64,000 bases of DNA from NCBI GenBank assembly GCA_015501595.1, contig JADNRX010000031.1:124001-188000 (forward strand), written 5' to 3'. Below are positions 16,041-54,139 of the stretch, piece after piece. The position numbers and the translations under genes were made by a program. Positions within the stretch are counted from its first letter, which is position 1. The number at the start of each line of letters is the position of its first letter. The DNA is from Hymenopellis radicata (taxonomy: Eukaryota > Basidiomycota > Agaricomycetes > Agaricales > Physalacriaceae). The notes below the pieces were generated by a model. That model did not search any database, was not told the DNA's origin, and saw only the letters and a list, made by a program, of their open reading frames with translations.

Positions 16041-16090
16041 TCGCCATACTGCTCTAAGGTAATATATCCGTGTTCATGCAGCTTTGATTC

Positions 16091-32265: not shown

Positions 32266-32585
32266 CACTCCCCGCCTTCGTTTTGATCGGACGCGCCCTA
32301 TCTGTAACAGGATGCCTCGTCTTGCTCTATTCTTTGCTATACATACTTTCTTTCATCGTAGGTAGGTACGATTTCAGTGTGTACTAGGGGTCTTCCCCGA
32401 GTACTCCGGCCAAATTGTATCTGCAATCAGTGTTCCTGCGTTTGGGACAAGTGTATAATAGTATAATGGGTGTAATTGAACATTAGTGTGTGATATAGTA
32501 TGTATATTAGTTGCGAGACAATACGAAAGGTCCAGCGATGGGATGTGAAATGCTATCGATACATGATAAGTTCAAGCTCAATGTC
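32266..32585. other. Intergenic spacer
   Basis: About 320 bp between copy A and the 3' end of the minus-strand membrane-protein candidate. AT-rich and with no recognised element; probably the two convergent 3' UTRs. Confidence 0.3.
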
Positions 32586-32588
32586 CTA

Positions 32589-33225
32589 GAGCTCCGATAA
32601 AATATCAGCCAGTGAGGGAATCGTCAAGAGGAAGCCAAGTAGAGGCCATGTTATAGGAAGAGAACCAGACAGTCCTATGGGGGGAATGACAATCAAAAGT
32701 AGAAGCAAAACGAATAGTGACCGACATACACTGTGGTCAGCGAGTCCAGGGGAATTAGGGCAGCTCCAGCAGGACCAGCAGCAGTAACGAGTCAAGAGCA
32801 GTAGCAGAAGTTTGCGGCAGTAGATAACCAGAAGCGGCTGGAGAATAGGACGGGCAGCGACGTATACAGGACCCCAGTGTTTACGCAATAGCTGTTGTGC
32901 AAATACGCGACAAGACATCGAAGCTAAGAGACCGTCAATACAATATAATATCAGGGCAAGCATACCAACATCCTGGGATTGCGTCCTCATTTGCAGCTTT
33001 GACACGAAGACACAGTCTGAGCAGGTAGTTGGGAAGGAGAATTGGAGAGAGGACAGCGAGGTAGACCGCAAGGAACTTTATGATATGTGTTGGTTCCACA
33101 TCGAGCACAGCGTAGGACCTGAAGATTACACATGAACAGGCGAAGAACATACTAGGAGGATGGACCTACCACAGACTATAAATAAGAGTAGATCTGCGAC
33201 TCGCGAGGAACGCTAGGTTGAACAT
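32589..33225 (-). CDS. Uncharacterised membrane protein candidate
   Basis: Exon 33225-33170 (MFNLAFLASRRSTLIYSLW) joins in frame across a 51 bp GT-AG intron to an exon starting at 33118 that reads SYAVLDVEPTHIIKFLAVY, then LAVLSPILLPNYLLRLCLRV and KAANEDAIPGCW. Further 3', minus-strand sequence to 32589 is strongly hydrophobic (RKLLLLLLTRYCCW, SLFVLLLLLIVIPPIGLSG). The splice pattern and hydrophobic blocks suggest a multi-pass membrane protein, but the exon structure from about 32980 downward is not resolved. I recognise no family. It lies on the opposite strand between tandem copies A and B. Confidence 0.42.
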
Positions 33226-33466
33226 CTGCAGTATCGCGACTGAAGGTGGTGAGCTGGAAAACGAGAGGCGCCGAGGGCTCGCTGTAGTTACGCGATGCTG
33301 TTGTTATCGATGCGCGTCGCGCGTCTATCATGGCGAGAGGTTTGGCTTAATACGGTAACGAAGTAAACTTGGATCACCTCGGACGCAGCCGGGCGCAGGG
33401 TAGGGGACTATCTCTTTCTGGGAATAATTTACCCTCGTCCCCACGCATCCCCACAAACCGTCATCT

Positions 33467-34995
33467 ATGTCCATTCCTGATCATGCCATCGGTTGCCTAG
33501 GTAGGCCTCGGAACACGGAGTTGGGAAAAGCTGACTAGCTTCTAGGTAGCCTGTGGTCCCCGACTTACTTGCGATTGACCTTCGCCCAATTTGATCACGT
33601 CCTCGAAATCGATGCCCCTCCTGTTCCCGAGTCTCGAGGAAATCAAGATCCTGCCAATGCTGCAATGCATATCAAGCATGATAGAGAGTTGATTAAGCTG
33701 CATCAAGATATCGTTGTAAGTACTACTTTACGAATGAAGTATGTGAACAGCAACTCAGCAACTTGAATTTCACAGGAAACCCTCATTCATACCATCGACT
33801 TCATGCGTATAAATAGCGCTGTACTGGCCCCGCAGCCCCACGGCGGCTTTGCTCTCGTTCCAAAGACGTCACAGGTGGACTTCTATACCATCCAATGTCG
33901 ACCGTGGGCGCCGTTAATAGACATAAGAGAAGTCAGAACGACGCGTTGGTGCGCAGACCCGCAGATAGAGGTACGCCAAGGATTGTGGCGTGGTCGTGAG
34001 ATCGGTATGCCAATTCAGTCACGTCGCCGGTTCGTTCATCCAGATTTACGTAGAATTCTTTGTGGCATGCGGAACTGGAATTCGAGTCGCGATTCAGCGC
34101 TACACGGATCTGCTTCAGGCCTTAAATGCATGCGGTCTGGATCTGTGTTCCCCTGTTGTAGGCCATCTGGTCAAGGATGGCTCTGTTATTGGTGTAGCTA
34201 CCGAGGTCCACACTGGACTGGCTACGTATGCGGACCGAGCCTTGGTAAGCTTGTAACTTTCTGCCTACGAACGTGTCCCCGGCCAGTACCTGATTGTGCG
34301 CCCTAGCTTTATGACGCTTTCCAGCAGCTTGAACGCGAAAACATATTTTTCAAGATCGAGCTATGCCCTGGCTCCATATACATCTCTGACGGAAAAGTAC
34401 GGTTCGGCTACCTGTGCGCGTCTCGTATGCGTCTGTATTCCGGACGCGAAGGTGGCGCCTTTTTAGAAGAAGCGCGACAAATACATTGGAGCTGCCTAGA
34501 TGACTTTCTTTCCACACTCGAGGATGAATTCTTCTCCACATTCATGCCAATTCGTTGGAACGAACAGTTTCGCATACTGGCATATATCCCCACCCCGAGC
34601 GACCTATCCTTCTTGATATAACGCTTGACGCTCGGACAAGATCGAAGTGGGTCAAGCATAGACGCTTTCAAAGCGGCCAGTCTCACAAGCCTTTACTCCA
34701 TGGCCTGACCAATGAGACCAATGACCTATCCGTCCATGCTTTCCCCTTCCCCTCCTCATACTATGACAATGTGATTCCCCTGACAGCGCGTGTGGGCTCG
34801 TACGAGACCGAAGATGACACGCCTCTACCACGAGCACATATAGAACTTGGAACACGACCAGTTCGTCGCCGGCACGTATTTGACCCGTATCGACGGGTAT
34901 CCACCCATATACGCTATCGCTCAAGCTGGGGCGACGACAGTGACGTTACCAGTGAGAGCACACCCTCTGTCGTTGCGCTTTCTCCGTCACCTTAG
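33467..34995 (+). CDS. Uncharacterised family, tandem copy B (one-base frame break)
   Basis: Same five-exon layout as copy A: 33467-33500, 33546-33715, 33776-34004, 34054-34244 and 34307-34995. The intron 3 acceptor is TTACGTAG, giving REI-EFFVACGTGI. Collinear blocks include ETLIHTIDF, HGGFALVPKTS, PWAPLIDIREVRTTRW, RQGLWRGREI, SPVVGHLVKDGSVIGV, YDAFQQLERENIFFK, FLEEARQIHWSCLDDFL and FRILAYIPTP, then after a frame change ERPILLDITLDARTRSKW and RYRSSWGDDSDVTSES. The change falls in CCACCCCGAG at about 34590, where one more C restores the frame read in copy A (YIPSPERPRLLEF). The broken frame stops within about ten codons. Restoring that base would give about 437 residues. Either a consensus error or a very young pseudogene. 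Confidence 0.72.
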
Positions 34996-35157
34996 CCAGT
35001 CTTCCTTTCTGTTTGATTTGCTCTTGAACCAGTGTTTTCTTGCTTGGCTTTTACGCTCATGCTTTTAGTTACTTTTATTGTCGCTTCCACCCCAGCACCT
35101 GTAGCCGGTTTATAACCATGCAAGTGCCCCGGCTTAACTGGCAGGAATCTTAATGTT

Positions 35158-35343
35158 CTCCTGGATGGAACAGCTTCGCATCCTGGCTTTCATCCGTACT
35201 CCTGTCCGTCGCCGAGGGGTCTTTGACCCGTATGGGCGCGCCCATACTGCTCGTACACGCTATCGCTCAGTCTGGCCCGGGGTGATGATATGACCACTGC
35301 GAGGGGGCAACCAGCTCCGTCGTTGGACCTCCACCACTGTAAC
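35158..35343 (+). pseudogene. Stub of a third tandem family copy
   Basis: Reads WMEQLRILAFIRTPV then directly RRRGVFDPYGR and RTRYRSVW. This matches NEQFRILAYIPTP and, after a gap of about 80 residues, RRRHVFDPYRR and HIRYRSSW of copy B. It is therefore a piece of the last exon with an internal deletion. No upstream exons were found. It shows that the tandem array was once longer. Confidence 0.7.
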
Positions 35344-36849
35344 ACATGTGCCCTTTCGTATCCTCACTCCATATCCTCTATCCACTCGTATTTCCTATGA
35401 AGTCTTTCTTTCACCGTTTTCGCTATCTTTGTGTCAATTCTCTGTGACAATTTTATATTACTAGTCCCCACATTACTAGCGCTAAAGGCTGTATATAAAC
35501 AATAGCACTTGTCTTTGCTATAGAAATCTGAACTTACTATACAGTACAATATTACTCTGATTTTTGACCGTTCTGGACAGTGGCGGACAGCGCGACAGAG
35601 CGGACATATAGATGTGCGGAGAACATGAGGAGCCGAAATACAATATTTCAGCTGTTACCTCAGTTGAGAGACAAGCAGACACAGGTCTAACTTTTGGATT
35701 GGGCTAACATTCTGTGCAGTTGTGGTCGATCTGTGGGCGCCAACTTAGTAGTATCAACGTTAGGCCATGTCAGTATCAAGGCTTTCCGATCACATGTAAA
35801 AGGTCCTGGATCCACGGAATGTCTGATAGCAATGTTAAGTGAGATGCCTTCATACCCGAACGCGGACTTGAGGGACGATGCCAGGACCTTCAAGTTGGAA
35901 TCAAGTTTCACAGATCGCAACTTGTCGCGCTGGGCTCAAGATCCGCCTCCGCCTTGGAAGCGCCCTTGTACTGCCCCACAGTAGACATGGTGCATCCTGT
36001 GTATCCTGTGTCAGCGGAAGTCGCAGGCCAGTACCATCTTCTGTGGGGACTCAATCAAAGCATCATGGCCCCACAATGAGATGACGTTCAACCACTGCCT
36101 CTGGCCAAGACCGCTATGACAGAATTTGATCTCCTCGGAGATGTATCTCGTTTAATCTGAGCATTTCAGGCAGCAACGAAGGCCCCGACATCAGGAAATT
36201 AATAAAATGCGCCGCATTGAGGCAGAGTGCATTCGGATACGTATATTTTCGCGTCGCGCGATGAGATGTCGTCTGGAGGTGTTGAAGAAAGGGGACCCGG
36301 ATGCAGAGAAAGACCGAACTATTGATAAATTACTGGTCGACGTCGTGAGCTAATGAGGGTGACTTGACCGAGGGAAGCGCAGACTACTTGGAGAACAGAA
36401 AGTAGAGGAGGAAGCTGCGACGCGCTCAGGCTGGAGGATGGCAGGTATTAATGCAATAACTTTCTCGACGAATCTGAGCGCCCAAGCAGCGAGTTACAGA
36501 CGCGCGGAGCGGCGAATCAGAGCGCGACATGAGGCATTTGTGTTTTGTAGAAACTAAGAAAGAAAGGTTGACCGATGACAACAGCCTGTCACCGGTCCGT
36601 CGACTCCGAGCGCGATCAGCACTGCCACAGTTGATGGTATGTCTTCTACTTCCATGTCGTTGGAGGATAACAATCCTTATACGATAAACTAACGACCCCT
36701 CGCGGAATTTCTCATTGATCTCTGTACCATTATTGTTTTGTCGCTGTCGTCGCTTTACTATCTATTACTGTAGGTGAACAACCTGTCATGATAGGACCTG
36801 ATCTCTTTACAGATTACAAGCTGTACTCCGTCTACAGCGTTAAATTTGC
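35344..36849. other. Long stretch without recognised gene
   Basis: About 1.5 kb. No open frame above about 100 codons and no recognised relic. The part just before 36850 should hold the promoter of the DUF6699 gene. Confidence 0.4.
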
Positions 36850-37904
36850 ATGGACCCTAACGAAAACGGCCAATCCTCTGATTTTCAACCCGAAAAACCA
36901 CTTCGTTCCATTCTTAGGCCGGGCCCCCCGCGTCCTATACCATCACGGTTTACGGTTCACCCACCGTCTGGCCCTCGCATACGCATCCATGAACAAGCAC
37001 ATCCCAATCACCCTATCCGCGACGTCTCTGAGCTAGTAGTGCCGAGTCATGGACCCACCCCAGGGTTCTATCTACCGTCCATGTCGAACGCCGAGGAGCT
37101 TGAAGCGTTTACTTTTCAGATCGCAGCGAAACTCCGCACTCAACGTCTGGCAGGCGAGGAAGCCCGTCGAGCAGCGGAAGAGGCTTGTAGAGCGGAAGAG
37201 GCGAACCGTCCTCCTCCGCTTCCCCGACCGACGGGCAAGCCGGAAGAATTTCGAGAGTTCAGCATTATTCTTATGGGCCCATGGGTCCCTGGCCCTGATA
37301 GTACGTGCATCTATTCAACGAAGGTGCCCAGACGTCTGATAGTCTCTCAGTGGGACCTATGCTTCCACCCAGGCTTGCCATGTCATTGGGACCTATCACC
37401 GTGAACCCGCTCATTGCCTTTCCGTTTTCCGCCCAACGTCGTTTCCGTTGGGATGTCAGATACTCATACGAAGATGCGAAATACGCGACTCCGAATCGAG
37501 AAATTCCCATTAGCCTTCCGAATGCTCGGCTTCAGCCCGCGACGGCTCCAAAGGTCCCGCGTCTGTTTATAATCTCGGAATCGTTTACATGGGACATCAT
37601 GGTGAATGCTAGACAACCGTCGGCAGGAGTCACTGTCCATGATGTGCTACATACCGTATGCAGGTTCCTTCATACCGCCCTGATAGATCAGACGATGTGC
37701 GATGCAAGTCAATCGCATCGGACGGCGGTTAGGAATGTGAATCGGATTCGCCTTTCGCAGTCCATAGGCCCTTCGGGCATTTGCATCTTTGATCTCTTAT
37801 TAGGAACAACCAAGTTCGGGGGGCTCATTCACAAACCGGATCATGTTGCAAACAATTTTTTACGAGAAGATGATGCTTTTTTTGTCTTATCTTTCGAGAA
37901 TTAA
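36850..37904 (+). CDS. DUF6699 domain protein
   Basis: Two exons, 36850-37300 and 37351-37904, with a 50 bp intron, give about 334 residues. The first half is Pro-rich and disordered (PLRSILRPGPPRPIPSRF) with an Ala/Glu/Arg helix (EEARRAAEEACRAEEANR). The second half fits the basidiomycete DUF6699 fold: VNPLIAF, FRWDVRYSYEDA, LQPATAPKVPRLFII, FTWDIMVNAR, GVTVHDVLHTVCRFLHTAL, then an arginine-rich stretch and FDLLLGTTKFGGLIHK. The acceptor choice (CTCTCAG) is the one that keeps the domain in frame. Function of the family is unknown. No localisation signal is seen and the copy looks intact. Confidence 0.8.
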
Positions 37905-37969
37905 TGGTCATACCTTCCATTACGACCCGTAGTTCGCGACATGTGGATATAAATTAGTGTCAAGTCATA

Positions 37970-39637
37970 CTACTGTTCTTGTACTCTTGGGAAACGGATG
38001 TGCAGGTAAGTGTATGCGTCAAATTCTAGCTGTGTATGACCATGTTCAAGTCGAAGATATGTTTCCCATTGATCCAGACAGTCCTTCAGTTGGTCGATGG
38101 TGCTAGGGTTTCGAAGCGCCACGAGAGCTGTTGCTACATCTTCGAACAGACGGATAGCAATAAAAGAATGCAATATAGGTCGGTACGCCACATCGGTGAT
38201 ACTGTGAGTGAGGGCTGCAATCAACATTGCACAAAGGCTGGCTGTTGTATCCTCGATATCTCGAGTCTGAAGCTGGGTACGAATGAAATACAGAATGCTC
38301 GGAATGAGAGCTTCTGTTATTTCATCGGACCAAGCCGCACCCAACATGACCTCTAGGATTTTATGAACCTTCTTCTTGTTTGTGGTTGAAAATCCAGGCT
38401 TTTGATAAAACGTACAGAGAAGCCGAGTGACCCAAAGAGGGTGTCGAGTCCAATATTCGAACGTACTGCTACCGGGCTGCATGTCAAGGCGGATAACTTC
38501 GATAAGATCATCCGCGTATCGTCCCGGTAGCGTGCTGGACAGAACCCGTTCCACAGGGCTACGCAACTCCCCAACTGTATAGGTGAACTTGTACAGAGAG
38601 CAGCAGATCTGAGTGAGAAGGGAATCCGAGCCTTGGTTTGTGGCAACTTCAAACAGCTTCCCAACAGTATCGACGAGTTGGAGATAACTGTGTCCAGCTC
38701 CGAGCAGAAGATGAGTCTCTGGTTTTTGGTTTATTCTCTGCTCTAAGGCCCCATGTCTCTCTTCTGGACTCCCACTATACATGACGAAACATGCATGCAA
38801 CGGTGAAAACACCTGGAACTGGTGTGGCTCCAAGCCACGTAACAGCTTCTGCAGTAAATCAAGAGTTGGTAGTGCATCCTGCCGCAGTACAGCAGAGTCA
38901 AAAGCAAACAGCACATGTGCAAGGGAGTCCAGAAGGAGGACGAGAACATCCTGGTGCAAGTATGTATCATTTGGTAACACAGACTTTAGATGCCACTCCA
39001 ATATGTGCTCTATCTCCCGGAGCGGATGATTGGCACGACTGACGATTCCCATCTGAGAGGCGGCCTTGTCGGAAGTCTTATATAACGAGAAATAGATAGC
39101 TTCCGTCGCCACCGCAACTGCAAGACTTTCAATCGGCCACTGCCGTGCAGATACCTGAGAGAGCGAACGACACTCTATTCTCAATGCTTTCCAGGCAGTC
39201 ATTAGCTCAGGATACAGCTTTCTTGGTACCTGAGGCAAGCCCCCTGTCATCAAAGACAGTTGATACGGGGACCCGACACCATCCAGAGAGATACACTTCC
39301 ACAAATGAAGATAGCTCATCATCAAATCGAGGTTCCGTCCTAAGATGTCTCTCATCTGGATTGCAGGGACAAGGTCTTTCATTGAATACAGTTCCTCAGA
39401 GGAAATGTCCAAGGAAAGCTTGGAATAGAGCAGTCCAGGGACTTTGGTGGAAAGGACCGAGGTCATCTTTCGGGGGACGTATTTGAGCGAGAAGATGGAG
39501 CGGAGGGCGGTGTCGATTGTAAGGGCGTTTTGGGAAGAGGAAAGGAGCCAAATGACCGCATCCCATATGAGGGCGCGTCGTTTCAGCTGCATGTACTCTT
39601 GTTCGCGACGTGCAAGGGTATTCTGCTGATGCGGTTT
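37970..39637 (-). pseudogene. 3' half of a DUF6535-type gene, 5' end cut by TIR element
   Basis: One long minus-strand frame of about 555 codons runs from the element edge at 39637 to the stop at 37970. It begins after an intron-like GCATCAG with QNTLARREQEYMQLKRRALI and continues as a helical C-terminal region like that of the gene at 2471-5558 (LIWDAVIWLLSSSQNALT, AYTYLHIRFPRVQEQ at the end). The N-terminal membrane domain is absent. Upstream, the frame runs straight into the terminal repeat of the 4.2 kb element. The frame is intact over 1.6 kb, so the truncation should be recent. A matching 5' half lies at 57615-58978 on the other strand. Confidence 0.72.
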
Positions 39638-39669
39638 CATCAGGAAACGACCATGGGACTCAGGATAAC
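39638..39669 (+). repeat. Left terminal inverted repeat, element copy 1
   Basis: Pairs with 43825-43857: CATCAGGAAA, a variable core, ATGGG, one mismatch, CTCAGGATAAC. The end of the DUF6535 half-gene abuts it. Confidence 0.8.
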
Positions 39670-40097
39670 TCAAGAGAACTCCCCAATGGTCAAGTCCTCC
39701 CAGAGCACCAGAGCAGATCAGAGCTGCTCTGGGTCAACCTGGACTGACTATGTGCAGACTGCATTCTCCAGAGCCTGCGTGAGTTATGTCTGAGTGATTT
39801 GGGCTTCCCACTGTAGAGCTGTTGTATTGAGTTGCATGAAGGTAAACTCAGGTTGCTTGAAATGACTCACATTCTATCCCGAGTCAGCCACGGCAAGCAC
39901 ATAACCCCACCCAAGCCTCCAACTTTGCATTATGTACATTACAATCTCCATACATAATGTTAAAGGTTTTCTCGATGTTCATGCTTAGTACTCCTTTAAA
40001 TACAGTGGCCCAAGTTGACGGGCGCAGCCTTGGGTGTAGCTAGAAAAGAGAATCGCGTCAGTACTATCATTGATGATTAAGGAAGAAAATGATCAGC

Positions 40098-40905
40098 TTA
40101 CTTGTGCAGTGTGTACGTGCCCAGCTCCCGTCCGATACCGCTCTGTAAGTCACCGAAAGGAACATTCGCGTGGAGCTGGTTCGCGCAGTTGACCCAGGCA
40201 GTCCCGGCCTTGCAGTCTCGAGTGCGCAGTTGATGTTCTGCGAGAACACTGCGGCGGCGAGACCGTAGACTACGAAGTCGTCGGGATTGGAGAGAAAGGA
40301 TGCTAGGGAAATGATACACACCGGTGTCGTTGGCCTGTCTCATCACATCCTCCTCATCCTCAAATTTGATAACAACACCGACGGAGCCAAAGATCTTCAT
40401 GTCCGGGGTGGTGTTGGTGAAGATGATGGGTGAGAATCAAGTAGCCCTCGTTTCCGTGGCGCTCGCCTCCATGGTGGACGGTAGCACCCTGCTCCTTGCC
40501 GGACTGGATGTAGCCCATAACGCGGTCGTATTGCTGCTGGGAGACCTGCGGGCCCTGGTCGATGCCCTCAGCAAAGGGGTCGCCCACTTTGATGTTCTTG
40601 GTGCATTCGGTGAAGCGCTTGAGGAACTCGTCGTAGATGCCGGACTGCACGAAGATACGCGAACCGGCGCAGCAAGCCTGTCCGTGGTTCCAGCTATAGA
40701 AAAGAGTTAGACAAGATCGAGGAGCAAACGCGGACAACGTACAAGATACCGTGAGCGGCCCAGCTGACGGCTTGTTCGAGATCGCAATCGTTAAAGATGA
40801 TGAGGGGGATCTTGCTGCCAGGCTCCGGGGTGACATCCTTGAGGTTGAACTTGGCAGCAGCCTCCATGACCTTGCGGCCGACGAGAGTAGATCCGGTGTG
40901 CCTTG
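40098..40905 (-). pseudogene. Aldehyde dehydrogenase fragment in element copy 1
   Basis: Only the C-terminal half of an NAD(P)-dependent aldehyde dehydrogenase is present, in pieces: TGSTLVGRKVMEAAAKFNLK, IFNDCDLEQAVSWAAHGI, NHGQACCAGSRIFVQSGIYD (the catalytic cysteine region), KVGDPFAEGIDQGPQVS, PDMKIFG then VGVVIKFEDEEDVMRQAND, YGLAAAVFSQNINCALETA, GTAWVNCANQLHANVPFG and GIGRELGTYTLHK. Defects: the normal LELGGKS motif reads PEPGSKI, a frame change follows GNEGYLI, a five-residue deletion follows KIFG, and another frame change follows CALETA. Host-type introns remain, so it was picked up from genomic DNA, not from cDNA. The N-terminal coenzyme-binding half is missing. Confidence 0.85.
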
Positions 40906-40999
40906 TCGACCTTGGTGATGAACGTGCCGTTAGAAGGGTTGATGGACACTGTCGATCGTGAGCGAGAGAAAAAAGTGAGACAAGCTGAGCACGTACTCG

Positions 41000-43824
41000 A
41001 CGTGATGCGCATGGGCGTATTGGCCATCGGTTGTCGGGGAGCAAGCGAGATCGGCGGCGGCGGATATCACGCAGGATGATTGAGTTGAGAGTGCAGTCAA
41101 ACCGTCGCCGCTTGTCTTCGCGCATAGAGCGACGGATATCGTGAGTTTAGCGAGTCGTCAGGTGAGCGCAGTTCGTCGCAGGAAAGCTATGGTCGCGAGT
41201 GGGCGACGACGAGCGCGTTGTTGAAGAGGAACCGCGTTCGTCGTCGGGAAGGATGCCCTGGTGGGGGAGCGGTGGGAGCCTGATCATACCGCAGCAAAGA
41301 AAGAGGCGAAAATGATGCATGAAGCTGAATCACGAAAAAATTAATAACATGTCGATCCAGGCAGAAAGAATGAACGTACTTGTCAATGCAGACCAAGCAG
41401 CAGCCCAGTCTGCACACTCTCACATGTCGCCTCTCATCCTTGAATCGGTCCTATGTCGTCCATGGAAGTTGCCATCGCTGCGTTGGCACTTGCTGCCTCC
41501 AAAAGGCTCCATGAGTGCGGAGACGGGGCATCACAGGATCGTCATTCGTGACGCACTTCGAACGGTCTGACAGCTCCAGATGCGACGACAACAAGATTAG
41601 GTCGCTGTGGAGAGACGGTCGCGTATGAGGCCCAAGCGGTGGTGGTAAGAATGAGACCTTGAGGACAAAAATGCTGGTGCGATCACCCCTCGGATGATCG
41701 GACCGGGCTGTTTTTGGCGACTTGGTCGAGCTCCAGCGCGATAACGAAGACAGTTGATATCTTAAAACATTGCGGGATGCATTCCCGACACAAGTTCGGA
41801 CATTTTATTTTTTGCCTATTTTTTTGGCCTATATGAAGATGATACTTGCACTTAGTAGCATTAACGCTGTCTCAAGACACTATATGCGGTACGTCGAGCT
41901 CGGCCGCATTTATACAAATGTGAAGTAGGTTTACTTGGTTCTTCCCCTTCTATTTCTAGGCCGCTTTGTGCTAGCGTTCGACGCCAGCGACACGATTGAA
42001 CGATGGTCGGATGACGGGACGGCGATCCGAGCAGTGATCAACCACTGTTCGGAGTCGTCTCTCTCTCTCTTTAACTACCACCACGATCGGCACGGACGTC
42101 TATCCCAACCCTTCCTTGTTGCCTCTGCCCTCTATTTTCGTTCCCGGTGCTCGCTGGATGACTCTGCCTACGCGTAAGCCCTGTCAGAACAGGCTACACT
42201 TACATGATTTTGGCCCCGTCGACTTGAGAAAAGTCGGCGTCAAGGAGTGCCTTGCCCCGCTGCATCCCACAAGTGGGCTCTGCCAGAGCGAGAGCCGGAG
42301 GCATAGACGCTGCACCGTCTGCAGGCGGGCTGCGTTCCCTCTCATTTTTCTGTCTTGATTTCTGGTTGAGTTCTCTAACAGGTCCACACCAGCTAGGTAT
42401 CGCTAGGTGTCAGTCCCTGCTGTCACCCATTCCACCTCCGAATGTGTTGCTCTAGCCAAGTCAGCGGCCATGTCGGCGACACGTGCGTGTTGATTTTTTC
42501 TTTCTCGATCAAGTCACTTACTTGTTTCCAATCCGCCACCACCATCAGTATCTGCCCCAATCACGCTGTGAAAACCAGGACACCGACCTCAATCATAGCT
42601 CTGACTTCCCAGCACGACGCACGCATATAAGCCCTGCCAACGTAGGCACCACCTTCAAGCATTGCACCCTCGACGCGCAAGTTTGTGTCAAGCCGTCCCG
42701 ACCCCGCTACGTACCACAGGCTAGCTCAACCAGAGCAAGAGCACGACGAGTAGACGCAAGGCCCTGTGCTTGCAGGCAATATCGTGCGCTCTTTCCCTAC
42801 TGTCTCTCACGCTGTCTTAATTTTCTATCCAAAGGAGTAGGTCTTTTTACGGCAAGAGGGCTTCTCAACGACGCTACTCTCAGGCCACCTCAGCACCACG
42901 TGCGTGTTGCCTTTTCTTTCAATCAATCCCCTCATCCCTTTGCCTCTCATTTCAACCACGGCAAAGGACGCGCAGTGACGACAGCCACAACTCAACAACA
43001 TCTAGCACCACAGCCACCGTCACTGACAATTACCGTAAGCCCCGTCCGCATCCTCTCATTCGCCCATACTGACGGCACACGCCGCCACGTCAGCATCGCG
43101 TGTATGTTATCATTTATCCTTCAACTCCAATCATCCTGACTTGTCCTCTTACCAGTACTCACGTCTATCGCCATAGTGGGCGGACCTGATGGCATCATAT
43201 TGCCCGTACCATCTTGAGTCAACCCGCACTGACGATTTGCAGCGCGGACCACCTGAACAACAACTTCAAGCCAGGACGACGACGATTGCGAATCATGACG
43301 ACTACGAGCGCCCACAATAATGACCAAGCACGGCGACGACAGTACGACCAATCACGACACCGTCGAGGACGAGCCAGCGCGACAAGAACGATGGTCTATG
43401 GATGACTGCGAGCTATGCCGTCGTCGACTTCCACCTCTGAGTACCGACGACGACGGGAACTAATGTATGGGGCTTATAAAGCATTTCTCTACATAGCCAC
43501 CACTGTTGTATCTGTTTTATGTTCTGGTAGACCAAATGTATGTTGTACAGCTATCGTGAAAATTGAAGGGAACCATTACTCATCTGGCATTCTCGAGAAT
43601 TGATGATGATTTCCATCAGAAGTGTAGTGGACTAGGGGGATTTCCTTGAGATTGAGTTTTCTTGAGGTGTATTTGAGTATGTCCAAGTGCTCCCCAGTCA
43701 TGCCAGAGCCAACCTCTGAGTGACTTGAGTTAGGCTGCAGGTCTGAACCTTTCTCAGAGTCAGCTTCATAACCTGTATGATTTCCTGTCTCCTGGTCAGC
43801 TAGAGTCAGCTATGGCACACCATG
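41000..43824. repeat. Element copy 1 interior with diverged tandem repeats
   Basis: No coding region was recognised. From about 42060 to 43140 it has related units about 420-430 bp apart. ACGTGCGTGTTG occurs at 42481 and again at 42900; TAAGCCCTG occurs at about 42174 and 42628; CAGAGCGAGAGC near 42286 resembles CAGAGCAAGAGC near 42733; and a GCAGGC block recurs. TC-rich tracts follow each unit. Confidence 0.5.
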
Positions 43825-43857
43825 GTTATCCTGAGCCCCATACCCCTTTTCCTGATG

Positions 43858-44254
43858 TATCCCCTTCCTTTATCTCGCGCGGCCGCTCGCTTTAGCCAGC
43901 ACCCACAGCTGTTGACTGGCGGGCCGACCTTGAGCCTACCTCCAGAAATGGGGATTGGCTAAAGAGCGCAGGCGCGCGAGATGTTTATTCATTTCTGAGA
44001 AGTTTCCCGGAGTTAAATGAATTTCCTTCTACTAACTACATTCTCCAGACATCTTTGGAGTCAACGACAACGGGTCCTTTTCCCAATGTGCCTCACTATC
44101 TGTACTTGCCGTGTACGACTACGGAGCCGCCAACGTTCATTCCGGCATGATGTAGAGCGCGACGTTGGGACTGTGAGACACCCCTGGCTTCGAGGGATGA
44201 CGACCACAGGACTATGTGTCCCTGGCGATGATGTCGCTAGCAACGTTGTCACTG
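43858..44254. other. Spacer between element copy 1 and the duplicated segment
   Basis: About 400 bp with no gene. It contains an imperfect inverted repeat with arms at 43873-43904 and 43950-43981 (CTCGCGCGGCCGCTCGCTTT against a diverged partner ending GCGCGCGAGA) around a 45 bp loop, which could be a small foldback element. Confidence 0.5.
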
Positions 44255-44505
44255 TACCAAGGTGAGATGGTCAAATTTGACCAATTCCTTCAGAAACTGA
44301 TGTTGTGCTTTAGACGAGAGTGCGAGGGCGTAGGACGGCTGAAGTTGGAGGGATGTGACCGTACCATGGAGGATACGTCGTTGTTACGGTCCTACGATGT
44401 GTGCCGAACCCGCCAGACGTGGCACGAGTGGTGCACGGGAGGTCGGGATGGTTCTCGACCTCACGGCGAAGCATGGAGGATATCGTTGTGATATCTCGCA
44501 CACGA

Positions 44506-47500
44506 CATCAGGAAACGACCATGGGACTCAGGATAACTCAAGAGAACTCCCCAATGGTCAAGTCCTCCCAGAGCACCAGAGCAGATCAGAGCTGCTCTGG
44601 GTCAACCTGGACTGACTATGTGCAGACTGCATTCTCCAGAGCCTGCGTGAGTTATGTCTGAGTGATTTGGGCTTCCCACTGTAGAGCTGTTGTATTGAGT
44701 TGCATGAAGGTAAACTCAGGTTGCTTGAAATGACTCACATTCTATCCCGAGTCAGCCACGGCAAGCACATAACCCCACCCAAGCCTCCAACTTTGCATTA
44801 TGTACATTACAATCTCCATACATAATGTTAAAGGTTTTCTCGATGTTCATGCTTAGTACTCCTTTAAATACAGTGGCCCAAGTTGACGGGCGCAGCCTTG
44901 GGTGTAGCTAGAAAAGAGAATCGCGTCAGTACTATCATTGATGATTAAGGAAGAAAATGATCAGCTTACTTGTGCAGTGTGTACGTGCCCAGCTCCCGTC
45001 CGATACCGCTCTGTAAGTCACCGAAAGGAACATTCGCGTGGAGCTGGTTCGCGCAGTTGACCCAGGCAGTCCCGGCCTTGCAGTCTCGAGTGCGCAGTTG
45101 ATGTTCTGCGAGAACACTGCGGCGGCGAGACCGTAGACTACGAAGTCGTCGGGATTGGAGAGAAAGGATGCTAGGGAAATGATACACACCGGTGTCGTTG
45201 GCCTGTCTCATCACATCCTCCTCATCCTCAAATTTGATAACAACACCGACGGAGCCAAAGATCTTCATGTCCGGGGTGGTGTTGGTGAAGATGATGGGTG
45301 AGAATCAAGTAGCCCTCGTTTCCGTGGCGCTCGCCTCCATGGTGGACGGTAGCACCCTGCTCCTTGCCGGACTGGATGTAGCCCATAACGCGGTCGTATT
45401 GCTGCTGGGAGACCTGCGGGCCCTGGTCGATGCCCTCAGCAAAGGGGTCGCCCACTTTGATGTTCTTGGTGCATTCGGTGAAGCGCTTGAGGAACTCGTC
45501 GTAGATGCCGGACTGCACGAAGATACGCGAACCGGCGCAGCAAGCCTGTCCGTGGTTCCAGCTATAGAAAAGAGTTAGACAAGATCGAGGAGCAAACGCG
45601 GACAACGTACAAGATACCGTGAGCGGCCCAGCTGACGGCTTGTTCGAGATCGCAATCGTTAAAGATGATGAGGGGGATCTTGCTGCCAGGCTCCGGGGTG
45701 ACATCCTTGAGGTTGAACTTGGCAGCAGCCTCCATGACCTTGCGGCCGACGAGAGTAGATCCGGTGTGCCTTGTCGACCTTGGTGATGAACGTGCCGTTA
45801 GAAGGGTTGATGGACACTGTCGATCGTGAGCGAGAGAAAAAAGTGAGACAAGCTGAGCACGTACTCGACGTGATGCGCATGGGCGTATTGGCCATCGGTT
45901 GTCGGGGAGCAAGCGAGATCGGCGGCGGCGGATATCACGCAGGATGATTGAGTTGAGAGTGCAGTCAAACCGTCGCCGCTTGTCTTCGCGCATAGAGCGA
46001 CGGATATCGTGAGTTTAGCGAGTCGTCAGGTGAGCGCAGTTCGTCGCAGGAAAGCTATGGTCGCGAGTGGGCGACGACGAGCGCGTTGTTGAAGAGGAAC
46101 CGCGTTCGTCGTCGGGAAGGATGCCCTGGTGGGGGAGCGGTGGGAGCCTGATCATACCGCAGCAAAGAAAGAGGCGAAAATGATGCATGAAGCTGAATCA
46201 CGAAAAAATTAATAACATGTCGATCCAGGCAGAAAGAATGAACGTACTTGTCAATGCAGACCAAGCAGCAGCCCAGTCTGCACACTCTCACATGTCGCCT
46301 CTCATCCTTGAATCGGTCCTATGTCGTCCATGGAAGTTGCCATCGCTGCGTTGGCACTTGCTGCCTCCAAAAGGCTCCATGAGTGCGGAGACGGGGCATC
46401 ACAGGATCGTCATTCGTGACGCACTTCGAACGGTCTGACAGCTCCAGATGCGACGACAACAAGATTAGGTCGCTGTGGAGAGACGGTCGCGTATGAGGCC
46501 CAAGCGGTGGTGGTAAGAATGAGACCTTGAGGACAAAAATGCTGGTGCGATCACCCCTCGGATGATCGGACCGGGCTGTTTTTGGCGACTTGGTCGAGCT
46601 CCAGCGCGATAACGAAGACAGTTGATATCTTAAAACATTGCGGGATGCATTCCCGACACAAGTTCGGACATTTTATTTTTTGCCTATTTTTTTGGCCTAT
46701 ATGAAGATGATACTTGCACTTAGTAGCATTAACGCTGTCTCAAGACACTATATGCGGTACGTCGAGCTCGGCCGCATTTATACAAATGTGAAGTAGGTTT
46801 ACTTGGTTCTTCCCCTTCTATTTCTAGGCCGCTTTGTGCTAGCGTTCGACGCCAGCGACACGATTGAACGATGGTCGGATGACGGGACGGCGATCCGAGC
46901 AGTGATCAACCACTGTTCGGAGTCGTCTCTCTCTCTCTTTAACTACCACCACGATCGGCACGGACGTCTATCCCAACCCTTCCTTGTTGCCTCTGCCTCT
47001 ATTTTCGTTCCCGGTGCTCGCTGGATGACTCTGCCTACGCGTAAGCCCTGTCAGAACAGGCTACACTTACATGATTTTGGCCCCGTCGACTTGAGAAAAG
47101 TCGGCGTCAAGGAGTGCCTTGCCCCGCTGCATCCCACAAGTGGGCTCTGCCAGAGCGAGAGCCGGAGGCATAGACGCTGCACCGTCTGCAGGCGGGCTGC
47201 GTTCCCTCTCATTTTTCTGTCTTGATTTCTGGTTGAGTTCTCTAACAGGTCCACACCAGCTAGGTATCGCTAGGTGTCAGTCCCTGCTGTCACCCATTCC
47301 ACCTCCGAATGTGTTGCTCTAGCCAAGTCAGCGGCCATGTCGGCGACACGTGCGTGTTGATTTTTTCTTTCTCGATCAAGTCACTTACTTGTTTCCAATC
47401 CGCCACCACCATCAGTATCTGCCCCAATCACGCTGTGAAAACCAGGACACCGACCTCAATCATAGCTCTGACTTCCCAGCACGACGCACGCATATAAGCC

Positions 47501-48723
47501 CTGCCAACGTAGGCACCACCTTCAAGCATTGCACCCTCGACGCGCAAGTTTGTGTCAAGCCGTCCCGACCCGCTACGTACCACAGGCTAGCTCAACCAGA
47601 GCAAGAGCACGACGAGTAGACGCAAGGCCCTGTGCTTGCAGGCAATATCGTGCGCTCTTTCCCTACTGTCTCTCACGCTGTCTTAATTTTCTATCCAAAG
47701 GAGTAGGTCTTTTTACGGCAAGAGGGCTTCTCAACGACGCTACTCTCAGGCCACCTCAGCACCACGTGCGTGTTGCCTTTTCTTTCAATCAATCCCCTCA
47801 TCCCTTTGCCTCTCATTTCAACCACGGCAAAGGACGCGCAGTGACGACAGCCACAACTCAACAACATCTAGCACCACAGCCACCGTCACTGACAATTACC
47901 GTAAGCCCCGTCCGCATCCTCTCATTCGCCCATACTGACGGCACACGCCGCCACGTCAGCATCGCGTGTATGTTATCATTTATCCTTCAACTCCAATCAT
48001 CCTGACTTGTCCTCTTACCAGTACTCACGTCTATCGCCATAGTGGGCGGACCTGATGGCATCATATTGCCCGTACCATCTTGAGTCAACCCGCACTGACG
48101 ATTTGCAGCGCGGACCACCTGAACAACAACTTCAAGCCAGGACGACGACGATTGCGAATCATGACGACTACGAGCGCCCACAATAATGACCAAGCACGGC
48201 GACGACAGTACGACCAATCACGACACCGTCGAGGACGAGCCAGCGCGACAAGAACGATGGTCTATGGATGACTGCGAGCTATGCCGTCGTCGACTTCCAC
48301 CTCTGAGTACCGACGACGACGGGAACTAATGTATGGGGCTTATAAAGCATTTCTCTACATAGCCACCACTGTTGTATCTGTTTTATGTTCTGGTAGACCA
48401 AATGTATGTTGTACAGCTATCGTGAAAATTGAAGGGAACCATTACTCATCTGGCATTCTCGAGAATTGATGATGATTTCCATCAGAAGTGTAGTGGACTA
48501 GGGGGATTTCCTTGAGATTGAGTTTTCTTGAGGTGTATTTGAGTATGTCCGAGTGCTCCCCAGTCATGCCAGAGCCAACCTCTGAGTGACTTGAGTTAGG
48601 CTGCAGGTCTGAACCTTTCTCAGAGTCAGCTTCATAACCTGTATGATTTCCTGTCTCCTGGTCAGCTAGAGTCAGCTATGGCACACCATGGTTATCCTGA
48701 GCCCCATACCCCTTTTCCTGATG
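44506..48723. mobile_element. TIR DNA element carrying an ALDH fragment, copy 2
   Basis: A 4.218 kb copy of the element at 39638. It splits CACACGACGTGGAG, which is intact at 59222-59235. The flanks are CACACGA on the left and GACGTGGAG on the right, so it duplicated two bases (GA), or three (GAC) if the element end is placed one base further in. Terminal repeats are at 44506-44537 and 48691-48723. No transposase was found. The near-identity to copy 1 indicates recent movement or recent duplication. Confidence 0.85.
44966..45773 (-). pseudogene. Aldehyde dehydrogenase fragment in element copy 2
   Basis: Identical to the fragment at 40098-40905, including the changed LELGGKS motif, the five-residue deletion and the frame changes. 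The defects therefore predate the copying of the element and are true mutations, not assembly errors. Confidence 0.85.
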
Positions 48724-49649
48724 GACGTGGAGACGCGCCGCGCCCCTCCGCATGGTGAGTCTTTCAAATTCGAGTCTGTTATTACGAAAACCGACCTTTT
48801 GTACTTTAGACCTCTTTTTCGTCGAGCGCCGACGTCGGACTATTCGAGTGCTCTCGGTTCAAAGGACGACGTCTTCCAACTCATGGGTAGTCTTTCACAC
48901 CGGTTATATTAATGTTGATTGCCTACTAATCTCGTAATCTCTAGACTTTGAGCGATGTTACATGGGGCGTCATTAGTCTTGTACTCAAGCTCGACACTGA
49001 GCTACTGGCGAAGATTCATTCCTGAGCTATTCACCTCCCGCCTTTTATGTAGACTTGACTTGGGGGTATGCAGCAGTTCTTTTGATTAGTCTATGTTGTG
49101 GCAGTATTAGTCTTAGTTTACCCTGTAGGTCTACGTCGTCTTTCGCGTACTTCATAGTAAGTCGTCTCTTATTTCCTTATACTGCCTTCGTACTGACAAG
49201 CACGTATATAGGTTTTGAGCTCCCCTCCCCGCTCTGAGTTTATCCGCATTGACGGCCTCTGCTAAGCCCCGGACGAAGTCACCCTCAACGTTGGGAAAGA
49301 CCCTCCTCAAGTCCCTTCACAGGTATAACACGATGCCCACCCCGACGTTACCCTCCTCAAGCATTCGCGCCCTCTCTTGGAACGACGTCGGTGGTTGTGA
49401 CTATGGACCTCAGCCATGTTGCTTGTCCGATATTAGGTTCAACGCGACCAGCGGCGCTACCGCCGCTGCGCTCGCGCTGCTCGCTTCTCGCGTCTGAGCT
49501 AGTTATTAGAAGCTCTTCTTGGAGTACTCCTGTAATCCCTTTTCATGTCAATCAAAAAACATTGTCGAATTCCAAATGTGCGTATCAGATATAAGTACAG
49601 TACAGTCATCGAGATTCGAATACAAGTACAGCAAGGATCAATCCACCAC
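48724..49649. other. Non-coding part of duplication copy A
   Basis: Matches about 59229-60155. Plus-strand frames are short and unrecognised, and several GT-AG-like steps are visible without a convincing gene. Confidence 0.35.
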
Positions 49650-51199
49650 CTAGTTACTTCTGGCTTTCCCTTTCCCTTCCGCGAGCGCTTCCTCTTCGAC
49701 TGTTTTTCCTTCTGCATAGTATCGAACAGTTGCAGATCCTTGAGGAGGTTTTCCCTGCCGTGTTTGCCGTGATCTCTGCACATAGTGTTGAACTCGACTT
49801 CGTCGGCGCTGTAGTGGTCGACAAGTTGGAGTCCTTTCCTGGCGGCCCGGATTGACTGCATCCCGATATTGATCGCAAGTGCAATCTGGATTGGCGGAAT
49901 CGTTTACCGTCCTAGATTTCATCCCGTCAGTTGAAAATATAAGCGTCGAGCACAAGGAACTCACCATGCCGACCGTCGAGTAGAACTCGACAAAATATGT
50001 AATCATACGCCAGTTCGCAATAATGTCCTCATCATCGTCGAGGACGTGGTGCTTAGTGTGAAGAAGTATCTGATAGTCGAGGGCGTAGTTGGAGGAAAGA
50101 ATATGGTTTCGGATAATCGTCCAATCGGGATGAGTAACACCATTTGGCGGCATTGGCGGCGCGAGTAGAGCGGGTGAAACAGTAAGAGGTGGTGCTGCGA
50201 CCTGAACTTGACTGAGTCAATGGTGTCGAGACAGATATATGGAACTTACGGTGTCAATGTAAATCTTCAAGCCGTTCGTTAAGTTCACGTCAATAGTACC
50301 GACGGCAAAGGTGGAAATTCCATCTTCGCCAGGGTGAACGCGAAAGAGGTGTTTAACAATGCCGGCGTGGAGATGATGGAATCCCATCTCGAGATCCGGG
50401 CCTACGATGTTGTCAATCCCGACAGAGATTACACCTTGAAGATTGAGTATATGAGAAAAGCAGCCTCGCTGAAGAAAATATAGAACTTACTCAACAGTGT
50501 ATGATCAAACGGAGGACACAGAAGCGCATTACCGAGCGCCTGGAAGACGTCTTGTGGATCAAAGCAAACGACGCGCACGCCGTGCTTCCACTGCCCGCCG
50601 GCAATCGGGAGCTCCCAATCGGAAGTAGAGAGAAGGACATTATCGCCAGTCCTATCTTCCACCCCACCGTCACAGCGTGAAACCCTAGCGTAGTTTGCCC
50701 ACCGCCAGAAGCTGCGTGAACATATGGTGCCACGGCTGTCAAGTTGACAGCAGAGCCCGAAGGAGCGGGGAGACCTTCAGCTGAGAGCGTGACCTGTGAA
50801 AAATATCAGAACACGGATTAAATTTGAGTGGTAGAACGTACACTCTGCGCATCGTCCGCATTCACACTGTTGAGGTACAGGGGAATAATATTCTCGGGAG
50901 CTTCCGCGCTGGTTGAGAAGAGGTTGTTCGGGTCGAGAAGCGCCGCGGTGAGCTCTTTGCGAGTCGCTGACTTGTACGTGAGCCGGACAGGCTTTCCAGA
51001 GTCGTTAGTGTGCGGCCAGCTGTCCCGTTGATGCAAGACGAGCCGGAGAAGATCATTTTTGGGAAGCTCACTGAGAAATTGGTTAATAAGACGAGGCGGA
51101 TATACGAGTCTGAACTCACCTGAGCTCGGAGGAATCATAGAACCTCGGAGGATAGTACCCCGTAGGTGTAGCGAGTCGTGACGCGCGGATGGGAGCCAT
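49650..51199 (-). CDS. Unknown protein, duplication copy A (frame breaks)
   Basis: Starts at the ATG at 51199 (MAPIRASRLATPTGYYPPRF). Exons joined by about 50 bp introns read ELPKNDLLRLVLHQRDSWPH, ENIIPLYLNSVNADDAQS, VTLSAEGLPAPSGSAVNLTA, HGVRVVCFDPQDVFQALGNA, GPDLEMGFHHLHAGIVKHLF, ISTFAVGTIDVNLTNGLKIY, PDWTIIRNHILSSNYALDYQ, MITYFVEFYSTVGM and, at the end, ENLLKDLQLFDTMQKEKQ plus a Lys/Arg-rich tail. I recognise no family. One-base losses relative to copy B break the frame near 50663 (GGGGTGG for GGAGGTGG), 49892 and 49675. Where copy B is broken (GAGCTCC, NLTNGLK), this copy is intact. A soluble protein with a basic, possibly nuclear, tail is all that can be inferred. Confidence 0.55.
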
Positions 51200-52469
51200 C
51201 GAGGTTAGAGAATAGCAGGAACTTCGGCCGAAGTTAAATTCCAAGCAGCGGCATCTTCCAAGTCAAATACTCTTGACGAACGATCGTCTCCCAGTCTATT
51301 CTCGATGTTCAGTCTGCTGCCTGTCAAGCAGATAGAGTCCATTGAGTCGAATGAGTGTCTGGTGAGCGGCAGTGGCGTCGAGTGTGTGACTAGGTGTCCG
51401 AAGTCCCAGATGACGACGTCGAGAAGGATGGCTGAAAAGAGGAATCGCTGGCGCGCGTGGGGGCCGAGGCCAGAAAAGCCAACATGAGGCAAACCGGTTC
51501 TGATGTCGTCAGGGAGAGAAACACGGAGAGAAAAGGTTGGTGGTCGAAGAAGCAGAAATCTCACCTGTGAAGCTTGATGAAACCTTAGGTGCGGCGGTCA
51601 CCGCGGCCAATGGCGCTGAAAGACGCGTGGAGAGCGACTGGAATTAAGCAGGGAACGTCGAAATACAGGAGCTGAGCCGTACGCGAGCTACAAAGACCGC
51701 GGTACGGTCACGCTCAAACATCGCCATCTGCGCGATTGACACCGATGACGAGGGCGACTGAATGGGAGAAGTCGAGAAGAAGGCGCGCGAGACGAGGCGT
51801 AACCAGCAAGGTGACAATGTGTGACGAACCAGCCAATCACAGGGCGAAACCAGGCGGCACGTGATCGAAACCGGTCACCGCTGGACACGATTAAAGTCCT
51901 AACACATTATGTTACTGAGAAGACTCACGTGTGAAGATACTGCTCAGAGAAGCGCGATTGAGTTAACGCGAAAGTTTCGCGTCGGCGGTGATACGGTCTC
52001 AGATATGATGGCCTATACGCGCCCCGGCCGCGCATGCGACACGTCATATTTCCTCGACTATCGGTGTGGGGACGCTGCTGTCCTTGACCTAGAGAGAGCG
52101 GGCTCGTTGTATGATGTCCTACTGGACGCAGGGGCTCTGCGCGTCGAGCGTGGCCACGCAAATCCGCTTCTGTGCTGGATCGCTTACGACGAAGGCGTTA
52201 TGGGATAAATTCAATGGGGACGTTGTTGAAGCAAAGGAAGGTCATGATGCATGATGGCAGGTTGCAAGAGCCAGTGTGACCAGGTGACATTAACGTGAGT
52301 GATTCTGGGACCCCCAAGGACCAACAAAATGGGACGGCCAGTAGTACCGACAACGCGGTCTTATGAATAATGACAAGACAGGTACTCCACTGTTACACCG
52401 GCCTACCCTCCAGTGTATGAACTCTCATAAAGGTCAAGACATTTTCGATACCAACCATGAGATTGATAT
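51200..52469. other. Upstream of unknown gene and right flank of duplication
   Basis: Up to 51907 this is the duplicated upstream region. A minus-strand frame here (matching 62024-62332) has a mitochondrial-presequence-like start but no supported gene. From 51908 to 52469 the sequence is unique and no gene was recognised. Confidence 0.35.
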
Positions 52470-53991
52470 TCAGGAGACATATACAGGAAGAGCCTCTGAT
52501 TCTGAAGTCTTCTCCAGTCCATGTGATAGTACCGAATCAAAACGCCCTCTGCGATAAGCCGTTACATTGGCGCGACACTCGTTCACCACCTCAATAGCCA
52601 CCACAAGGTCCGCACGTGAGCGTTCTGCTCGCCGTAGTGCGCCCATGAGTTCTTCTTTGAGCTAAATCGAACATTCAGACTTGATGTCTAAAGCTAATGG
52701 CGATATCAGGCTTACTTGTTTGTGCGCCACAATGACTTGCTCCCCGGATTCTTCCATTGCGCTCCTGAACGGTATTTCGAAAACTGTTTGGAGGAAGAAA
52801 GCTTCCAGTCGAACGCTCCTGACCGGAGTGTAAGTATTTCTTTAAGCCTAACGCGTTGTCTGTGACGTACACTTGCGGTACGACGAACTCGCCGATATCT
52901 TGCACCTCCGCTGTCGCATTTTGCGCAGCGCGGACGAGGGTTATCGCCTCATCCCCTAACTCCCTAGCTTCTCGAAGATTGTTGCGCTTGGCCTTGTCAC
53001 TCTTTCTGGTAAGAAGAACGGCTCCTCAGAACCCGTCTTCAAACGGCGACCAAAAGGAACTACGTACGCAGAGCTTCCGTAGACATCTAATGTTTGTTCA
53101 AACATCCGCTGCACTCTGGTCAAGTGATGTACAGCTCACCTCCTCGTGTCTGCTCAAAGACTTCCTTCATAATCTTTGCATGACACACTTTCATCTTGTC
53201 CTCTGCCTGCTGTAGTATAGTGACAACATGACGATCGTTTGCATCTTGACGCGTAAATAGCTCTTGCGTGACTTCGGCGTGAAACAATTGTTCCTTCAAT
53301 TCTGTATCTTGAGGATCTACAGTGAACAGTCAGCAGTATCCATCAGTAATAACGTTCTTTAACGTCACAGAACCACATACCATTCTGACCCTCGAAAACA
53401 CTCTCGCACAAATTCCATAGGTCGTCCTTGAGTATATCATAACTGTTCATCTTTCCTGTCAGTTCATTATGCTGATTGACCGTCAGAGCCCGACGACGCC
53501 GAAACGTATCCCACATACCTCCGCCTTCGCCTTCGCTATATCCATCTCTAATTCTTCTTGTCGACGACGTGCAACAACCTGTCGATTTAACGCATCGACG
53601 TAGTCTCTATAATCCAGCACCTAAACTCAGATGGGTTGCCCATATACCGGCGATTCACGCACCGTTCTTCCTTACTCGCAATCTCCTCAAACTTCTCTTT
53701 CTTCCCCGCTAACTTATACGCCAGTTTCCGCGCTGTCGCATCCCGCATCTGCTCATGCTCTTCTCTCTGCTTCCTCGTCGCCTCATCCGATTGTCTCACA
53801 TCTGCAATAGTCCTCGAAAGCTCCTTCTCCAATGTCTTCAACTTTTGGGATTGCGTCTGGAGCACCGTCGGTACATGCCGTAGTTCAGCCAACGACGCTT
53901 GAATGCGCATATACGCAGAAGCATTTTCCAGGATCCTCTCAGATAACCGATCCCCGGCGGTCGCTGATGGCGGTGAAATAGGAAAAGTCAT
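52470..53991 (-). CDS. Coiled-coil protein, paralog 1
   Basis: Starts at MTFPISPPSATAGDRLSERI (ATG at 53991; an upstream ATG at 54009 is in frame). Exon 1 reads ENASAYMRIQASLAELRHVP, then a long charged helix (LKTLEKELSRTIADVRQSDE, ATARKLAYKLAGKKEKFEEI, ASKEER). Later exons give DYVDALNRQVVARRRQEELE, MNSYDILKDDLWNLCESVFE, LFTRQDANDRHVVTILQQAE, DEAITLVRAAQNATAEVQDI and finally LKEELMGALRRAERSRADLV, stopping at 52470. All are joined by small GT-AG introns. It is almost entirely heptad-rich helix, with no signal or membrane segment. I know similar uncharacterised coiled-coil proteins from Agaricomycetes; the function is unknown. The copy looks intact and is the neighbour and paralog of 54140-55856. 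Confidence 0.7.
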
Positions 53992-54139
53992 CGTGAATGT
54001 GGCTATCAACCCGGCATACTTATATATGAGCCATACGCGGATGATACGCCGAGACTCGGCGGGTGATCACATGGATATGGCTTGCGTTCAGTTTCCCATC
54101 ATCGCGTATTCCTCATCCACGCGCTAATGTTGAATCAGA

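Follow-up and report, generated by a model that had tools for sequence, protein, structure and literature searches.

The stretch analyzed here, a 64,000-nt window of the basidiomycete Hymenopellis radicata (contig JADNRX010000031.1, positions 124,001 to 188,000 of the forward strand), contains two nearly identical transposable elements, Unit 1 (W1) and Unit 2 (W2), that carry part of an aldehyde dehydrogenase (ALDH) gene between terminal inverted repeats (TIRs). We consider it very probable that they represent a Pack-type Plavaka element, i.e., one with Plavaka-type ends whose ancestor seems to have captured a whole host ALDH gene that has since been eroding in its descendants. The ends and their target-site duplications (TSDs), a transposase-bearing relative, copying at the level of DNA, a cargo shared between copies and an empty site for W2 were all established directly.

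W1 occupies positions 39638-43857 (4,220 bp) and W2 positions 44506-48723 (4,218 bp), both on the plus strand with a spacing of 648 bp. An earlier reading of the window, made from the letters alone (hereafter, the original prediction), had described two 4.2-kb units with the same boundaries, and exactly these were recovered: the units differ at three places (a single substitution and two C-run indels of 1 base each), and the identity between them does not continue past either end of the element. The imperfect TIRs of about 32 bp that it had reported are 32 and 33 bp long and lie at 39638-39669 (plus strand) and 43825-43857 (minus strand) in W1, and at 44506-44537 (plus) and 48691-48723 (minus) in W2. 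When the W1 ends were aligned with one 1-base gap, 27 of 33 columns matched, compared to 15 of 33 without gaps. Both ends of each unit read CATCAGGAAA, the left repeat of W1 running CATCAGGAAA..CTCAGGATAAC. Internally, element positions 1646-2699 (41283-42336, plus strand, in W1; 46151-47203, plus strand, in W2, positioned by offset) are shared wholly or partly, at 70-90% identity, by relatives on other contigs. Three 33-nt imperfect direct repeats follow at 42466-43115 on the plus strand of W1 (starts 42466, 42883, and 43083), and recur in W2 (starts 47333, 47749, and 47949). As predicted, no transposase was recognizable: among 29 W1 reading frames of ≥60 aa, 10 non-ALDH frames of 76-227 aa had no Pfam match, and of four further stretches scanned, three matched ALDH only.

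W2 is a clean insertion. It is flanked by GA on the left (44504-44505) and on the right (48724-48725), and an insert-free counterpart of its site, with a single GA, is found on the plus strand at 58978-59906. The two sites agree at 925 of 932 columns without any substitution; the other 7 columns are gaps, and two of these correspond to the additional GA at the W2 junction. Whether duplicated locally or belonging to the other haplotype within the same contig, the counterpart is an insertion-free site. The 2-3-bp duplication that had been predicted for the units is therefore clean at W2 (GA/GA), but W1 has TT/TA.

Ends of this kind form a large family. The window has five copies of CATCAGGAAA against an expectation of 0.14, and in the 75.5-Mb genome the sequence was found 1,004 times (515 + 489), compared to 111 (48 + 63) for a reversed-pattern control; a longer W-type end, allowing ≤3 mismatches, gave 23 sites vs. 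0. Since these counts are far above expectation and control, the ends are not a product of chance. The last 158 bp of the W element have 22 matches in the genome, W1 and W2 included, and the search for paired ends called for by the original prediction did find other copies. A lone CATCAGGAAA at window positions 36189-36198 lacks the CTCAGGATAAC part and is probably no element end. We then sampled 18 plus/minus pairs less than 10 kb apart, hand-picked on contigs up to C240 from the first 100 of the 1,004 sites, all with CATCAGGAAA at both ends by selection. These elements were 1,989 to 6,101 bp long, and 17 of the 18 had exact 2-bp TSDs, with the next two bases outward agreeing in 2 of 18; the sole pair without matching flanks was L058 (GA/CA). 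The duplicated dinucleotides (AC, TG, TT, GA, CA, AA, GT, and TC) were varied, so the target is not limited to TA. As to coding content, 10 large open reading frames (ORFs) of other elements could be assigned to no family, and a scan of 20 elements (L051-L070; the 148 largest of 355 ORFs ≥75 aa) returned one Aldedh match, presumably that of the C774 copy described below (L069). Matches to Treslin_N (E 0.0011) and zf_RING_Vps8 (E 0.0034) in the same scan were marginal and judged to be chance.

The original prediction had seen no obvious match of the ends to hAT, Mutator, Tc1/mariner, or CACTA; they do fit a known group. Plavaka transposons belong to the CMCT clade and are related to CACTA, with some families encoding a TET/JBP dioxygenase; PlavakaA is described with TGT..ACA ends and 2-bp TSDs, and PlavakaB with CATCA..TGATG ends and 2- or 3-bp TSDs (PMC12730594). 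W1 and W2 both have CATCA..TGATG termini, and TSDs of the PlavakaB type were present at W2, in 17 of the 18 sample pairs, and at the relatives on C774 (two copies, C774a and C774b), C1151, C1074, and C488, while W1 itself (TT/TA) has none. An autonomous PlavakaB would also encode a transposase, and in W1 only ALDH was matched in the frames scanned. Judged by ends and duplications only, W1 and W2 thus fit non-autonomous members of the PlavakaB group (CACTA/EnSpm-related, CMCT clade). CACTA/EnSpm proper, hAT, Mutator, and Tc1/mariner were excluded by the CATCAGG ends and the varied 2-bp duplications, considering that Mutator duplicates 9 bp and Tc1/mariner TA only. EnSpm has CAC..GTG ends and a 3-bp TSD (PMC12730594), and the hAT TSD is 8 bp (PMC12730594, PMC6710886). 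KDZ, our first candidate for the mobilizing system, was set aside since the W-family TSDs are 2 bp while those published for KDZ are longer (Kyakuja, 7 bp; Zisupton, 8 bp; PMC12730594). KDZ transposase domains are plentiful in the genome (166 matches, exon fragments counted); in the 20 of these loci that were fetched with 1.5-kb flanks, a range that larger elements would escape, exact CATCAGGAAA occurred in 0 and a decamer with one mismatch in 7.

The Plavaka transposase domain (PF18759) had 73 matches in the host genome and 0 in 14 control genomes. Three Plavaka loci were fetched (C488, C114, and C485), and in all three an inward-facing CATCAGGAAA follows the 3' side of the domain at a distance of 1.6-2.0 kb (1.75 and 2.0 kb in C114 and C485). 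In C488, positions 9307-16291 form a 6,985-bp element with such ends, the second of which was located by pattern search, and an AA/AA duplication. It includes a 474-aa open stretch matching PF18759 (E 6.7e-112); a single-sequence structure prediction of the transposase fragment was uninformative (mean pLDDT, the predicted local distance difference test, 33). Within the C488 subfamily, 1 of 42 plus/minus pairs less than 15 kb apart, built from 100 of 101 matches and with the longest pairs perhaps spurious, encloses a Plavaka match. A larger, transposase-bearing relative, for which the original prediction had proposed to look, therefore exists with the same outermost end bases, but none was found with W-type ends.

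The cargo is a broken ALDH gene. Three of four minus-strand stretches of W1 matched PF00171 (E 1.9e-11, 5e-26, and 2.1e-11), and the captured sequence, which begins ~0.3 kb inward from the left end, extends over 39926-41000 on the minus strand (in W2, 44794-45868, minus strand, positioned by offset). Positions 39926-40898 hold the C-terminal half of ALDH with introns and some 3' sequence beyond the stop. The PF00171 matches bear out the intron-containing C-terminal half of the original prediction, but a 5' exon piece at 40899-41000 has to be added to it; between the two, 659 bp of the host gene are absent. That gene, the closest in the genome, is on contig C752, where tblastn recovered consecutive exons running from the start codon (position 144 of the C752 stretch) to the stop (around position 1950). 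Alignment to the intact gene, which had been proposed as a check, identified C752 as the source with introns retained, and therefore DNA rather than a spliced message was copied. A near-identical copy of the gene lies on contig C766, where one base has been inserted into a T run in exon 1. In their 3' part, C752 and C766 are 2.9% apart; over 253 codons, the first and second positions show no change and the third shows 11, as would be expected for a gene under constraint. The W1 cargo diverges by 9.4-9.9% from C752 and C766 and by 19.5% from the ALDH copy on C1270.

A third copy with the cargo of W1 and W2, C774a (C774:41283-45421), is flanked by its own TG/TG duplication, in agreement with the earlier view of a non-autonomous TIR element moving a piece of a host gene. 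Its cargo differs from that of W1 by 2.4%, with 4/8/6 changes at the three codon positions (~240 sites each) and 4 of 239 in non-coding sequence; few as these changes are, the cargo shows no sign of coding constraint since the two copies split. Two hallmarks of a Pack-TIR were found, i.e., host sequence other than transposable elements between TIRs with a parental copy elsewhere (ALDH; C752 and C766), and a cargo moved by the element (W2 and C774a share it at different sites, each with its own TSD).

Other relatives retain other parts of the gene. In C752-stretch positions, C774a holds 256-361 and 1021-2034, and the element at C1151:43901-48139 (GA duplication) holds 104-139 (in front of the start codon), 232-264, 346-679, and 919-1097, and a further 16 nt match 300-315 (E 0.095). 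A second element on C774, C774b (224616-229724; CT duplication), holds 150-207. The pieces of C774a, C1151, and C774b all share one orientation, and a control with the reversed host stretch gave one 35-nt chance match (E 0.33). Since three lineages hold different, co-oriented pieces that range from the 5' leader to beyond the stop, a single ancestor probably took up the whole ALDH gene, whose parts were then deleted differently from lineage to lineage; the C-terminal-half state seen in the window would probably be a late stage. An additional relative, C1074:91941-96658, is flanked by TC/TC, resembles these elements in its ends, and contains the internal stretch.

Several observations weigh against this reading. 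The C488 element has no match to the window, sharing with the W elements only its outermost bases and the length of its duplication. Across the 22 right-end matches (coordinates judged by eye, left ends mostly not located), no Plavaka gene was found between W-type ends, and in C464 and C918, which carry both W-type right ends and Plavaka matches, the latter lie outside the element; movement in trans is something we infer. ALDH was present in 3 of 14 relatives compared (12 of the 14 being partial or cut), of which C774b retains just 58 nt. Ten other partial relatives gave only two 25-nt ALDH matches at chance level (E 0.33), none was found in the 18 sample elements L051-L068, and C1074 had none in 4,288 of its 4,718 bp, bar a 14-aa chance match (E 2.1). 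Since ALDH was not found in most relatives, its capture was either restricted to a sub-lineage or followed by loss elsewhere, and the ALDH-free relatives may either never have had the gene or have lost it since. The T-run insertion of C766 is either an allele defect or an assembly error. The flanks of W1 (TT/TA) form no matching duplication, and they derive from two places. As to the cargo, it could be argued that related elements made separate captures of different pieces of one ALDH gene, given that the pieces overlap little (~100 nt between W/C774a and C1151, with 77 nt at 1021-1097 and ~25 nt near 256-264 and 346-361) and that C1074, related by its ends and internal stretch, shows no ALDH. 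However, the pieces come from one host gene in one orientation and always occupy the region that separates the left end from the shared internal stretch, and the 5' piece of C774b (element positions 2191-2248) sits roughly where a full-length insert begun near 289-311 would have its 5' end; we regard separate captures as improbable. Still less probable is that the element was simply carried along when the local DNA underwent tandem or segmental duplication. W1 and W2 are indeed 648 bp apart and nearly identical, and the neighborhood does hold a duplicated block (44255-44506 plus 48724-51907 vs. 58978-62422), but identity between the units halts at the element ends, the insert-free counterpart of W2 has a single GA where W2 is flanked by two, and the third copy, on C774, is flanked by a TG/TG of its own. 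The repeat does not reach past the ends of the element, so adjacent DNA was not copied along with the units; such joint duplication is what the original prediction had named as telling against it.

The setting of W1 was weighed separately. Its left flank is also present on C1262 (99%) and C723 (89%), in a match that halts at the element end; beyond this point, C1262 (95%) and C723 (82%) run into the reverse complement of window positions 58972-58395, directly in C1262 and after a few unaligned bases in C723. This continuation (58395-58972, minus strand) is inside a reading frame matching DUF6535 (E 7e-25), and since C1262 and C723 are continuous across the break at the left flank of W1, the DUF6535 gene is split in the window. 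Its parts are 19 kb apart and in opposite orientation, with breaks at the left end of W1 and at 58972 (plus 5 extra bases), while in C1262 and C723 the region is unbroken over the stretches compared. Plavaka, KDZ, and DUF6535 together fit a host from the mushroom class of the basidiomycetes. Overall, C1262 aligns piecewise, at 90-98%, with window positions 51910-58972 in forward and 31638-39637 in reverse orientation. Either the chromosome was truly rearranged at the break or the assembly is wrong there. It is quite conceivable that near-identical copies or haplotypes were joined in assembly, leaving W2 as the only trustworthy insertion: W1 has TT/TA flanks and is nearly identical to W2, the contig carries two copies of a block that differ by indels only over 932 columns, and C1262, at 90-98%, resembles a second haplotype. 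A simple mis-join inside the element would not predict, however, that the break side at 58972 has 5 extra bases and joins non-element sequence. We hold it possible, if doubtful, that W1 instead marks a real inversion breakpoint, at which a cut at one transposon end was joined to the DUF6535 break by aberrant transposition. This would account for what C1262 and C723 show beyond the left flank of W1 (window 58972-58395 in reverse complement), for one breakpoint being exactly a transposon end and the other having 5 extra bases, and for the TA/TA duplication that W1 would acquire if 39638-58977 were flipped back; yet a TA agreement arises by chance about once in 16, and the order before inversion requires a head-to-head repeat around W1. 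In addition, C1262 left of 63673 (L076) has no other match in the window and window positions 62423-64000 are unmatched elsewhere in the genome, and since these outer sequences are unmatched, there is more than one change between the window contig and C1262. A bolder proposal, that Plavaka elements of this fungus act as whole-gene shuttles, one of which took up and spread the complete ALDH gene with its introns, and that its near-identical descendant in the window also inverted the chromosome via a single-end cut and split the DUF6535 gene, is in our view unlikely; if true, it would combine gene capture and aberrant transposition in a transposase group whose mobility has barely been studied.

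For the Pack-type Plavaka element that we favor, the following course of events is suggested by its anatomy. A Plavaka transposase supplied by another copy would recognize the CATCAGGAAA ends and excise the W element, and reinsertion would generate the 2-bp duplication. An ancestor would have copied a complete ALDH gene, with introns and untranslated ends, from the locus now on C752, probably by template switching or gap repair, the routes put forward for animal Pack-TIRs (PMC8277862). The element would then have spread while its sister lineages each shed internal parts of their own; the short 5' exon piece and the C-terminal half would be what the window's lineage kept. W1 and W2 would derive from very recent transposition.

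Other repeats are also present in the window. The block duplicated around W2 (44255-51908, W2 excluded, and 58978-62423) is 98-100% identical between its copies, which have a common right end, CCTAACACA. Its left part has relatives of 68-75% on many contigs, often several per contig, and its ACA end recalls the TGT..ACA of PlavakaA; no left end was found. Beside W1, at ~43861-43996, is a short inverted-repeat sequence (TCTCGCGCG..CGCGCGAGA) with 10 further places at 86-92%. A 250-bp element at ~55241-55500, with inverted ends TACTGTAGCGTTTCGACCG, has at least 31 other places at 98-99% and is missing from the matching position of C1262, which suggests a short repeat with very recent activity. 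Large inverted duplications at 6650-8932/15507-17836 (86%) and 9402-11268/13584-15431 (93%) form a palindrome-like structure.

Plant Pack-TYPE elements have ends and a transposase that differ from those of the W elements. They resemble the W elements as non-autonomous DNA transposons, Pack-CACTA among them, that move host coding DNA (PMC8903248). Animal Pack-TIRs likewise hold host sequence between TIRs with the parental gene still in the genome, and one multicopy case with distinct target duplications is reported; their pieces are mostly short (median 224 bp), whereas here a probably complete gene of ~1.9 kb was involved, in a fungal element of the Plavaka type (PMC8277862). The hAT elements with histone H3 in Dothideomycetes are similar in that a fungal TIR element amplifies a host gene; in Pseudocercospora fijiensis, however, H3 is intronless and the TSDs are 8 bp, while the W elements kept introns and have a Plavaka-type carrier (PMC6710886). 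Hundreds of hAT-borne H3 copies of P. fijiensis are described as damaged by repeat-induced point mutation (RIP), and 23 of 26 in Pyrenophora tritici-repentis as looking functional (PMC6710886). PlavakaB itself is matched in the ends, as judged by their published description, in the 2-bp duplications, and in the PF18759 transposase of an element in the same genome with these outermost bases; it differs in that the W units are without transposase and carry a host gene (PMC12730594). Ends of this type, such duplications, and Plavaka transposases have thus been published already. So has gene capture by TIR elements, which is well described in plants, surveyed in animals, and known in fungi from hAT with H3. 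In the open-access literature, as represented mostly by titles and summaries, we found no report of a non-autonomous Plavaka element with a captured metabolic gene, and we regard the W element as modestly new.

If our reading is true, Pack-type capture would extend to Plavaka-type transposons, and an intron-bearing, probably complete gene would have been carried and then eroded in different ways across sister lineages. Very recent movement is suggested by the near-identity of the copies and by the empty site, so that the process may be testable in living strains, and the end motif together with the 2-bp duplication provides a handle for finding non-autonomous Plavaka elements in fungal genomes.

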